This document shows, piece by piece, positions 3,170 through 64,000 of a DNA stretch of 64,000 nucleotides; the stretch's first letter is position 1, and every line of letters begins with the position of its first letter. The position numbers were made by a program, and so were the translations under genes. The notes below the pieces were generated by a model, which saw only the letters and a list, made by a program, of their open reading frames with translations, was not told the origin of the DNA and searched no databases. The DNA is from a virus: positions 114,077 to 178,076 of the IMG/VR virus record IMGVR_UViG_3300025098_000013. One strand, 5' to 3'.

Positions 3170-3366
3170 TGTATAGATTCTTCAGGTCGCAAAAAGTTAC
3201 GTTTAATGATAAGTTGTTCATCGTGGTTAAAAAAATTAAAATTGACCGAAATCCGATAATTGATGTATGGAAGGAACACCTTAACGCTGATACTGTTTTA
3301 AAAAGAGATGGATACTATTGGTTTTGTGAGGAAATTCCTTCAATTGACTTTGAAGAATTAACATAA
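3169..3366 (+). CDS. Small hypothetical protein, 65 aa, GTG start
   Basis: The start codon is GTG, overlapping the Hsp20 stop codon by one base, so translation is probably coupled. The product is basic in its first half (RFFRSQKVTF, VVKKIKIDRN) and acidic at the end. No family is recognised. It is the last gene before a strong terminator. Confidence 0.5.
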   Translation: MYRFFRSQKVTFNDKLFIVVKKIKIDRNPIIDVWKEHLNADTVLKRDGYYWFCEEIPSIDFEELT

Positions 3367-59892: not shown

Positions 59893-60672
59893 ATGTCAAA
59901 TAAATTTGTAATAAAGAATGGACTTAAAGTACAATCAGGTGGTATAAACACCACTGGTGATTTATCTATTACAGGTTCATTAGTAGTAACTGGAACACTA
60001 ACGGCTGAGTCTTATATAGTAAGTTCCTCTGTAACACATAAGACTACCACATTTAGTAGTGGGTCAACCCAATTTGGTGATACTTCTAATGATACCCATG
60101 GATTTACCGGGTCAATGGATGTAACTCAACAAATTACTACACCGGATATAAAATTAACTGGATTAAGTAATGCAGGTGTTGATACTGATAAGTTCTTAGT
60201 ATTAGACTCAAATAGTAATGTAGATTTTAGAACTGGTACTCAAGTACGTTCTGATATAGGTGCTGTAGCTATTGGTAATGAAATCCACCCAATACAATTG
60301 ACAATAGATACGAAAAATTCACCTTTTGGTTATGTCGCATTTTCAGGATTATCTGATATACAATCACTCCCTAATAGAGCATTCACTACCTTTATAGCAC
60401 CATGTACTGGTTACATCGAAGATATAATTGTATCACCCGAACAAACTAATTCAGTTCAGGACGATTGTGATATTTCACTATATAATGGTGGTTCGCAACA
60501 ATCCTCTACAAATACGGAAACGTTACAAAGTGCAGGTACTAATGTAACCTTTAACTTTGGGGCTTCAAATTACTCATTTAGTAACGGAGATAGATTGAGT
60601 CTTGAATTTGATAAAAAAACTAATACTTCTGAATTGTACAATATGATGATTGTACTTAGGTTAACAAGTTAA
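59893..60672 (+). CDS. Tail fibre-type protein, 259 aa
   Basis: The start MSNKFVIKNGLKVQSGGINT, then LSITGSLVVTGTLTAESYIV, is a common fibre opening in marine phages. It carries TDKFLVLDSNSNVDFRTGTQ, shared with the gene at 57937. The C-terminal about 120 residues (FGYVAFSGLSDIQSLPNRAF, SFSNGDRLSLEFDKK) form a separate beta domain, probably the tip. A GAGGAAA ribosome site precedes the ATG. Confidence 0.65.
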   Translation: MSNKFVIKNGLKVQSGGINTTGDLSITGSLVVTGTLTAESYIVSSSVTHKTTTFSSGSTQFGDTSNDTHGFTGSMDVTQQITTPDIKLTGLSNAGVDTDKFLVLDSNSNVDFRTGTQVRSDIGAVAIGNEIHPIQLTIDTKNSPFGYVAFSGLSDIQSLPNRAFTTFIAPCTGYIEDIIVSPEQTNSVQDDCDISLYNGGSQQSSTNTETLQSAGTNVTFNFGASNYSFSNGDRLSLEFDKKTNTSELYNMMIVLRLTS

Positions 60673-60685
60673 GGGATAAAGTAAT

Positions 60686-63600
60686 ATGGAATTAATACAC
60701 GGTTTACATAAAGATACCTTAATAGACATCAATGGGAGTCTCCAAAATATTGGTGACATACAACCGGGTGACGTAGTAAAAGGTTTTGAAATAAAAAGTG
60801 GTGTCGTAAGAGACAATAAAGTTGTTTGGGTAAAAACATCAACAATCGGCTCTTACATTGAATTCACCCTTTCAGATGGTTCTAACGTAAAATCATCAGT
60901 TGATGCTAAAATCTTAACCCTAATGGGTGAGTGGGTTTCACCAATAAATGCATTCAACAAACAAAAAGAATTACACAACGACCTACACATTACCTCATTA
61001 AGGTATGTAGAAGAATCGTTAGATATTATAAGTATAGAGGTAGAGCCTGACCACAATTACTATGTAGGTAAATTACTATTCCACAATACGGGTCCAACTG
61101 GTCCAGCTGGTCTAAAGGGTCAAAAAGGAGAAGCTGGTAATAAAGGTGTTACTGGAGCTCAAGGACCTCAAGGTGCACAGGGTCAAAAGGGAGCTACTGG
61201 TTCACAAGGACCTGGTGGTTCTACCGGCCCAACCGGACCTCAAGGCCCAACTGGTAACAATGGTGTAACTGGTCCTAAAGGTGCAACTGGCCCAACCGGC
61301 CCCAAAGGTTCAACAGGCCCTCAAGGTGGAACAGGCCCTCAAGGTGCTAAAGGTGTAAACGGACCTACTGGTTTAACTGGCCCTCAAGGTGCTCAAGGGA
61401 ATGCCGGTCCTAAAGGTCAAAAAGGAGCTACTGGCTCACAAGGTGGAACTGGTGCTACAGGTGGAAAGGGTTCCACTGGTTCAAAAGGACCACAAGGTGC
61501 TGATGGCCCTCAAGGTGCTAAAGGCCCACAAGGTGCTACTGGCCCACAAGGTGATAAAGGTCAAAAAGGTGCAACTGGCTCAACCGGTCCTCAAGGTGGA
61601 GTAGGTCCACAGGGTGGAGCAGGCCCACAAGGTGCTACTGGCCCACAAGGTGGAACTGGTCCAACAGGCCCTAAAGGTCAAAAAGGAGCTACCGGCTCAC
61701 AAGGTGGAACTGGCGCAACAGGTCCTCAAGGTGCTGATGGTCCTCAAGGTGCAACTGGCCCTAAAGGTGCTACTGGCCCACAAGGTGCTACTGGCCCACA
61801 AGGTGGAAAAGGTCAAAAAGGAGCTACCGGCTCACAAGGTGGAAAAGGTTCACAAGGTGCTAAAGGTGTAAACGGACCTACTGGTTTAACTGGCCCTCAA
61901 GGTGCTCAAGGAAATCCCGGCCCTAAAGGTGCAACAGGAGCTACTGGCTCACAAGGTGGAACTGGTGCTCAAGGTGGAAAAGGTTCTACTGGCTCAACTG
62001 GCCCACAAGGTGCTGCTGGCCCACAAGGTGCTAAAGGCCCACAAGGTGCTACTGGCCCACAAGGTGGAAAAGGTCAAAAAGGTGCAACTGGTTCAACCGG
62101 TCCTCAAGGTGGGGTAGGTCCTCAAGGTGGAGCAGGCCCACAAGGTGCTACTGGCCCACAAGGTGATACTGGCCCAACAGGCCCTAAAGGTCAAAAAGGA
62201 GCTACCGGCTCACAAGGTGCAACTGGCCCAACAGGACCTCAAGGTGCTGATGGTCCTCAAGGTGTAACTGGCCCTCAAGGTGCTACTGGCCCTCAAGGTG
62301 CTACTGGCCCACAAGGTGGAAAGGGTCAAAAAGGAGCTACCGGCTCACAAGGTGGAAAAGGTTCACAAGGTGCTAAAGGTATAAACGGACCTACTGGTTT
62401 AACTGGCCCTCAAGGTGCTCAAGGAAATCCTGGCCCTAAAGGTCAAAAAGGAGCTACTGGCTCACAAGGTGGAACTGGTGCTCAAGGTGGAAAAGGTTCT
62501 ACTGGCTCAACTGGCCCACAAGGTGCTGCTGGCCCACAAGGTGATAAAGGTCCACAAGGTGCTACTGGCCCACAAGGTGATAAAGGTCAAAAAGGTGGAA
62601 CTGGCTCAACAGGCCCTCAAGGTGGAGTGGGTCCTCAGGGTGGAGCAGGCCCACAAGGTGCTACTGGCCCACAAGGTGATACTGGCCCAACCGGTCCTAA
62701 AGGTCAAAAAGGAGCTACTGGCTCACAAGGTGCAACTGGTCCAACAGGACCTCAAGGTGCTGATGGTCCTCAAGGTGCAACTGGCCCTCAAGGTGCTACT
62801 GGCCCTCAAGGTGCTACTGGCCCACAAGGTGGAAAGGGTCAAAAAGGAGCTACCGGCTCACAAGGTGGAAAAGGTTCACAAGGTGCTAAAGGTGTAAACG
62901 GACCTACTGGTTTAACTGGCCCTCAAGGTGCTCAAGGAAATCCCGGCCCTAAAGGTGCAACAGGAGCTACTGGCTCACAAGGTGGGACTGGTGCTCAAGG
63001 TGGAAAAGGTTCTACTGGCTCAACTGGCCCACAAGGTGCTGCTGGCCCACAAGGTGCTAAAGGTCCACAAGGTGCTACTGGCCCACAAGGTGATAAAGGT
63101 CAAAAAGGTGGAACTGGCTCAACAGGCCCTCAAGGTGTAGTAGGTCCTCAAGGTCAAACAGGCCCTCAAGGTGGGACAGGCCCACAAGGTGATACTGGCC
63201 CAACAGGCCCTAAAGGTCAAAAAGGAGCTACTGGCTCACAAGGTGCAACTGGCGCAACCGGTCCTCAAGGTGATACCGGCCCACAAGGTGCGGTAGGTCC
63301 AACCGGTCCAACTCAACCAAAAGGTCAAAAGGGAGCTACTGGCTCACAAGGTGCAACTGGTCCAACAGGACCTCAAGGTGCTGATGGCCCTCAAGGTGCA
63401 ACTGGCCCACAAGGTGATAAAGGCCCACAAGGTGCTACTGGCCCACAAGGTGATAAAGGTCAAAAAGGTGGAACAGGCGCAGATGGTGGTAAAGGTCAAC
63501 AAGGTGACCAAGGTGCTCAAGGTTTAACAGGTGGAACAGGCCCACAAGGTGACCAAGGTGCTCAAGGTGATACCGGCCCTCAAGGTGATAAAGGTCAAAA

Positions 63601-64000
63601 AGGTCAAACTGGCCCTCAAGGTGCTGATGGCCCTCAAGGTGCTGATGGCCCTCAAGGTGCTACTGGCCCACAAGGTGATAAAGGTCCTCAAGGTGTAACT
63701 GGCCCACAAGGTGATAAAGGTCAAAAAGGTCAAACCGGCCCAGATGGTGAAAAGGGTCAACAAGGTGACCAAGGTGCAACTGGTCCAACTGGTGGAACAG
63801 GCCCACAAGGTGACCAAGGTGCTCAAGGTGATACCGGCCCTCAAGGTGATAAAGGTCAAAAAGGTCAAACTGGCCCTCAAGGTGCTGATGGCCCTCAAGG
63901 TGCTGATGGCCCTCAAGGTGCTACTGGCCCACAAGGTGATAAAGGTCCTCAAGGTGTAACTGGCCCACAAGGTGATAAAGGTCAAAAAGGTCAAACCGGC
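60686..64000 (+). CDS. Hint domain fused to collagen-like fibre (3' partial)
   Basis: The frame opens with ATG at 60686 and stays open for 1105 codons to the window edge. Residues 1-134 form a Hint (intein/hedgehog-type) domain: [55 protein letters not shown] and C-terminal His133-Asn134 followed by Thr135. The usual first Cys is replaced (Gly6 at the equivalent place) and the TxxH motif reads SVDA. From Thr135 the rest is Gly-X-Y collagen repeat, rich in GPQ, GAT, GPT and GQK. Asn cyclisation could release the Hint domain and free a collagen fibre. One Gly is missing (GPT-QPK-GQK near 63313). Confidence 0.85.
61088..64000 (+). repeat. Collagen-coding repeat region with 513-bp and 261-bp higher-order periods
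   Basis: The 9-base Gly-X-Y code is organised into longer units. GGACCTACTGGTTTAACTGG recurs at 61361, 61874, 62387 and 62900, exactly 513 bases apart (57 triplets). A second unit recurs at 63541 and 63802, 261 bases apart (29 triplets). All lengths are multiples of nine, which keeps frame and triplet register. The region is prone to expansion and to assembly errors. Confidence 0.9.

Follow-up and report, generated by a model that had tools for sequence, protein, structure and literature searches.

Autoprocessing by Hint domains is known, as are BIL domains, the pretoxin Hint domains and the collagens of phages. In inteins, Cys1, the Thr and His of block B and the Asp of block F (F:4) serve the N-terminal step of the reaction, and His F:13, His G:6 and Asn G:7 serve the C-terminal step (PMC4031507). 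Asp F:4 is thought to delay the cyclisation of Asn until splicing has begun (PMC9033041, PMC12245125, PMC4031507). Its exchange to Gly yielded the C-cleaving Mtu RecA delta-I-CM intein (D422G), whose C-terminal cleavage is uncoupled and faster (PMC9033041), and the same exchange (D107G) speeds C-terminal cleavage of gp41-1 C1A (PMC12245125). Both mini-inteins are laboratory products which act as N-terminal leaders and cut themselves off by Asn cyclisation. In the class 2 KlbA intein, mutations of His B:10 and Asp F:4 were found to lower C-terminal cleavage as well (PMC4031507). Type A BILs are characterized by an N-terminal thioester, two flanking protein parts and a non-nucleophilic +1 residue (PMC4031507). 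These domains cleave more than they splice. The PT-HINT domain (PF07591) of polymorphic toxins is located just before the part which is to be released.

Procollagen possesses a removable N-terminal propeptide, and procollagen propeptides are cut off by separate proteases. Lysyl hydroxylase and glycosyltransferase are encoded alongside collagen both in animals and in mimivirus, the latter precedent being that of Luther 2011 as cited in PMC12220804 and PMC8968730, and most prokaryotic collagens reportedly lack hydroxylation and glycosylation (PMC8968730). Within the open-access literature searched, no account was found of a phage collagen fibre with a Hint leader, or of any fibre carrying an N-terminal Hint domain that lacks Cys1 and the F:4 Asp.

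A Hint domain at the N-terminus of a phage collagen fibre

The window, i.e., the whole stretch of 64,000 nucleotides which was analysed, comprises bases 114077-178076 of a 178-kb record from a T4-like phage, the major capsid protein of which most resembles its counterparts in Microcystis phage Mel-JY01 and Flavobacterium phage immuto. Its last gene encodes a collagen fibre protein with an N-terminal Hint leader (Table 1). An RBS-like stretch is located just 5' of the ATG, and 13 bases separate the gene from the preceding fibre gene, relatives of which reside directly 5' of the Hint-collagen gene in related, divergent loci. The gene is truncated by the end of the window, as the contig ends within its repeats. 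A near-identical record (L003), the DNA of which equals the window at 3315/3315 bases of the Hint-collagen gene, encodes the complete protein of 1244 aa: 134 Hint-like residues are followed by approximately 1070 residues of Gly-X-Y, which are interrupted once, and by a short C-terminal domain, the last residues of which are ...TYVLHMYVSGSY.

Table 1. Features of the Hint-collagen locus (window positions; for the genes outside the window, positions in record L100, G000:C1).
Feature	Position	Strand	Basis or remark
Upstream fibre gene	59893..60672	+	blastp synteny
Collagen fibre gene with Hint leader	60686-64000+	+	ATG start at 60686
Degenerate Hint domain, residues 1-134, N-terminal leader	60686..61087	+	AlphaFold, Foldseek, profile against PDB
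Gly6, at the intein Cys1 nucleophile position	60701..60703	+	alignment of 20 homologues
Block B TxxH, reading SVDA (Ser71-Val-Asp-Ala74)	60896..60907	+	alignment and profile
Ser116, at the block-F Asp (F:4) position	61031..61033	+	HMMER alignment to DnaE inteins and homologue alignment
Asp122-His123, with block-F His (F:13), invariant	61049..61054	+	homologue alignment
His133-Asn134/Thr135, predicted C-terminal cleavage site (His133 61082-61084, Asn134 61085-61087, Thr135 61088-61090)	61082..61090	+	invariant 20/20, synonymous codon variation
Collagen-like Gly-X-Y region	61088..64000	+	runs on past window end
Second collagen gene	L100 910-4146 (G000:C1 910-4146)		same phage, outside window
PKHD-type 2OG-Fe(II) oxygenase, 199 aa (PKHD/PiuC-like)	L100 4182-4781 (G000:C1)		by similarity
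Glycosyltransferase-lysyl hydroxylase-like fusion, 564 aa	L100 4789-6483 (G000:C1)		by similarity

A preliminary description of this DNA had claimed a Hint fold for the leader, and structure prediction corroborated the claim for residues 1-134. The AlphaFold model reached a pLDDT of 89 and a pTM of 0.82, and its best Foldseek match in the PDB was the T. thermophila BIL2 domain (6y75, E 7.6e-10), followed by the Ssp DnaB and the Npu DnaE inteins, with the TM-scores of the PDB matches lying mostly at 0.7-0.8. A profile built from 20 relatives likewise retrieved 6y75 (E 1.8e-9), gp41-1 (E 1.5e-7) and the C. thermocellum BIL domain (2lwy, E 1.9e-7) from the PDB, whereby the alignment reaches the terminal His-Asn. 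The leader hence shows the all-beta fold of the Hint superfamily with blocks A, B, F and G in order. Single-sequence matches are weak (Pfam Intein_splicing, E 0.06; DnaE intein 7qil, E 0.0025), and no singly scanned member of the family reached the Pfam thresholds of the Hint and intein domains, for which reason routine annotation would probably overlook the leader and describe the product simply as collagen-like.

Scans of 2.9 million viral contigs, carried out with patterns spread over the domain and one junction pattern, identified 20 distinct Hint-collagen homologues with pairwise identities down to 35%. As most of these patterns were sited away from the junction motif, the invariance of the junction is not merely a consequence of how the family was searched for. 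One further candidate, L023, turned out to be a chance pattern match and not a member. Close relatives of the leader were not found in the searched collection of isolated phages, which gave weak matches only (NCTB and mycobacteriophage proteins), and two scans of bacterial genome contigs did not find the leader. All 20 homologues share the same losses and the same kept junction, and their profile finds inteins and BIL domains in the PDB, which rules out that the resemblance to Hint arose by chance. Most members have five residues in front of the Cys1 position, and L055 and L073 have seven; L009 carries ATA where the others have their start codon, which may be another start or stem from an error in sequencing. 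In nine of the 20 leaders (L007, L010, L011, L012, L013, L015, L016, L055 and L073) the loop which connects blocks B and F contains a cluster of Cys residues (such as CxCxxCxC) that may be a metal or redox site; the leader encoded in the window has no such cluster.

Lost N-terminal and kept C-terminal chemistry

The loss of Cys1 (Gly in the window) and of TxxH (SVDA in the window), as read earlier from the window alone, extends to all 20 homologues. The Cys1 position is occupied by Gly (13 homologues), Ala (3) or Ser (4) and never by Cys, and the TxxH histidine (B:10) is replaced by Ala, Ser, Ile, Val or Leu (His in 0/20), the block-B Thr surviving as Ser. As an addition to the preliminary description, the block-F Asp (F:4) was identified to be Ser in 20/20. 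Since Cys1 and the TxxH histidine are gone, neither an N-terminal acyl shift nor splicing would be anticipated. Efficient C-terminal cleavage does not follow automatically from the losses at B:10 and F:4, as mutations at these positions reduced that very step in KlbA.

The C-terminal block, in contrast, was rightly described as intact and as running straight into Gly-X-Y: His123, His133, Asn134, Thr135, Gly136 and Pro137 are each found in 20/20, and in all homologues the predicted scissile bond marks precisely the beginning of the collagen. The junction codons vary synonymously (CAC/CAT, AAT/AAC, ACG/ACC/ACT/ACA) and encode invariant residues, which points to selection acting on the protein. 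The statement that the gene opens directly with the Hint domain and has no N-extein requires amendment: the domain is indeed N-terminal, but the Cys1 position comes only after five conserved residues (M-x-L-I-H). His5 (60698-60700; 20/20) and His8 (60707-60709; 19/20), which flank the lost Cys1 position, are conserved like catalytic residues.

Comparison with the described systems assigns the leader to none of them. With class 1 inteins it shares the His-Asn followed by Thr (HNT in 20/20), but it departs from these in possessing Gly or Ala (16/20) or Ser (4/20) at position 1 and no TxxH histidine (0/20), and in that the reading frame starts 5-7 residues before the Cys1 position, so that no N-extein and C-extein surround an insertion. 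The Hint fold and the C-terminal His-Asn (20/20) are in common with type A BILs, from which the leader differs by an N-terminal flank of only a few residues, by lacking Cys1, and with it the N-terminal thioester, as well as the TxxH histidine, and by a +1 residue which is always Thr and thus not non-nucleophilic. PT-HINT was weakly matched by 16/20 members, the best at E 1.4e-7; among the singly scanned members, to which that one does not belong, the best scored 27.2 bits against a cut-off of 27.7. The position just before the part to be released is common to PT-HINT and the phage leader; in the phage, however, this part is a collagen fibre and not a toxin, and the Hint domain is located at the very N-terminus. 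Phage NCTB tail proteins also possess Hint domains ending in His-Asn, yet in two of these proteins the domain is C-terminal, has kept Cys1 and is not directly followed by collagen. The engineered C-cleaving mini-inteins resemble the leader in the residues that were removed: the F:4 Asp is absent from both of them and from the phage leader, and Cys1 is absent from gp41-1 C1A and from the phage leader, whereby the phage family has both losses fixed naturally and carries Ser instead of Gly at F:4. The leader is classed as a variant of Hint autoprocessing.

A second Hint-collagen gene and distant relatives

In 12/12 representative loci the gene following the Hint-collagen gene encodes a second collagen with an N-terminal domain of its own, which comprises 155-209 residues, ends in VHN and is followed by a Cys-containing linker and then by Gly-X-Y. 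Next to the locus listed in Table 1 these are L003 (9754 onward), L006, L007, L009, L010, L011, L013, L019, L020, L029 and L053. The model of the second leader shows a Hint fold (five models, of which the best has a pLDDT of 85 and the others 64-78) and matches BIL2 with E 1.9e-7, and when profiles are compared, the two leaders prove to be weakly related (E 2e-5). The second leader keeps His-Asn in 11/11 but has Asp in place of the block-F His in 11/11, and its +1 residue is Pro, Phe, Ala, Val or Asn, with Pro in 4/11. Conservation drops sharply just behind Asn, where some of the most variable residues of the domain are located, and this looks like the pattern of a cut site. The absent block-F His and a +1 Pro, on the other hand, argue against cleavage being efficient; of the +1 residues, gp41-1 tolerates various ones except Pro, Asp and Glu (PMC12245125). 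As His-Asn persists in the second leader without the block-F His and often with Pro at +1, its invariance alone does not prove cleavage, and His-Asn may have a structural role.

Five distant phage proteins of about 1490 aa (L127-L130 and L134) carry an N-terminal domain of the second-gene type ending in HN (hhalign E 3e-12 for L127 against the profile of the second leader), which is followed by Cys-rich sequence and, in the part examined, by no collagen. Given these Cys-rich proteins, N-terminal Hint leaders on virion-type proteins may extend beyond collagen.

Suggested processing of the leader

Uncoupled cleavage by Asn cyclisation at the Asn134-Thr135 bond is considered the best reading of the leader, with a probability of roughly 0.6, because the losses of Cys1 and of the F:4 Asp are the very changes which engineers use for obtaining C-cleaving inteins. 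The suggested mechanism assumes that a Hint domain which has retained only the C-terminal half of the reaction folds as a leader before the collagen chain. Next, Asn134 would cyclise, aided by His133 and His123, whereby Ser at F:4 would have removed the brake which Asp imposes on cyclisation, and the Asn134-Thr135 bond would be cut. The thus freed collagen chain would start with Thr-Gly-Pro and contain no foreign residue. A self-cleaving leader had been proposed in the preliminary description, and the fold, the lost N-terminal and kept C-terminal chemistry, the coincidence of the bond with the collagen boundary and the presence of His-Asn in 20/20 homologues, a test which that description had called for, support it; the exchange of the F:4 Asp to Ser and the hydroxylase-like and glycosyltransferase genes located downstream strengthen it further. 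Cleavage itself, perhaps following trimer nucleation or taking place on the virion, is what we infer from these features, and the second gene weakens the step from a conserved His-Asn to a cleaving one.

Against cleavage, removal of the leader would leave the mature fibre without an N-terminal attachment domain, and against pure C-terminal cleavage, the Thr at +1 is invariant though it is not needed for this reaction. The main rival is a Hint domain exapted as an uncleaved structural module for fibre attachment or trimer capping, His-Asn-Thr serving the folding of the last strand or the triple-helix junction, which we consider unlikely, if the most serious of the alternatives. T4-like fibres normally attach by their N-termini, which would suit such a module, as would the near-complete conservation of His5 and His8 outside the C-terminal chemistry and the persistence of His-Asn in the second leader, where the Asp in place of the block-F His and the frequent Pro at +1 make cleavage least likely. 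It is difficult to reconcile, however, with a first gene that keeps the C-cleavage set (H123, H133, N134) and loses the N-cleavage set, with the F:4 Asp being lost as in engineered C-cleaving inteins, and with the poor conservation right after Asn in the second gene.

Cleavage might instead be conditional, the leader staying in place as attachment point and cutting upon a trigger such as a pH drop, a metal or redox change or receptor binding, so as to shed the fibre or let the tail move. Low pH strongly accelerates C-terminal cleavage of the F:4-mutated delta-I-CM intein (PMC9033041), and the Cys cluster of the B-F loop could be a metal or redox switch; as the window's own protein lacks this cluster and nothing seen ties cleavage to a trigger, this appears quite improbable. 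Splicing or ligation is regarded as very improbable: Thr+1, the F:4 Ser or Ser1 would have to attack the His5-Gly6 bond, joining MxLIH to the collagen, or the Thr135 amine would be ligated to another protein. The largely conserved MxLIH, the invariant Thr+1 as an allowed intein nucleophile and Ser1 in four members would fit, but the TxxH histidine is lost in 20/20, Gly1 or Ala1 is present in 16/20, and searches of the phage yielded no further Hint domain except that of the second gene. The alternative splicing classes were rejected likewise: class 2 is defined by Ala1 together with His B:10, Asp F:4 and Cys+1 and class 3 by a Trp-Cys-Thr motif, whereas the leader has no His B:10, Ser at F:4, no Cys+1 and no Trp or Cys at the motif positions.

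If uncoupled Asn cyclisation holds true, the leader would be a natural, fixed counterpart of the C-cleaving inteins used for purification, serving as the propeptide of a virus fibre; collagen would be matured without a protease, and Hint autoprocessing would be linked to phage particle assembly. The family represents candidate traceless self-cleaving leaders, of which the +1 residue and the trigger are open to study.

Putative collagen-modifying enzymes and a procollagen-like locus

The second collagen gene is followed by an oxygenase gene (also in L006, 12002 onward) and this in turn by the glycosyltransferase-lysyl hydroxylase-like fusion, which, or a diverged form of it, is located near the collagen genes in 13/17 related records. 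Over 203 residues, the C-terminal half of the fusion matches human lysyl hydroxylase LH3 (E 6.3e-29); its other half belongs to GT4/GT1-type glycosyltransferase Pfam families, unlike in the animal and mimivirus systems. Lysyl hydroxylases use X-Lys-Gly as their site, and Lys occupies 21-28% of the Y positions in the two collagens of the phage, in which Pro at Y is rare. The phage collagen is predicted to be hydroxylated and glycosylated, and the adjacent enzymes suggest that such collagen may exist in bacterial viruses.

The locus resembles a phage procollagen-processing locus. By analogy, and speculatively, the leader would act like the N-propeptide of procollagen, keeping chains apart or tethered while hydroxylase and glycosyltransferase act, before or during fibre assembly, and holding them until modification and trimerisation; procollagen needs separate proteases for propeptide removal, whereas the phage leader would remove itself. 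The complete pathway, i.e., two tandem collagens with self-removing Hint propeptides, modification by lysyl hydroxylase-glycosyltransferase and a PKHD-type enzyme and autocatalytic maturation without a protease, is put forward tentatively, as we hold it for somewhat less than an even chance.

A related arrangement was observed in an isolate, Synechococcus phage S-CAM9 (L136/L137). Its collagen-bearing tail fibre, which was checked for a Hint leader and has none, is followed by two 2OG oxygenases, and a further S-CAM9 protein, annotated as hypothetical, possesses a related PLOD-like C-terminal domain.
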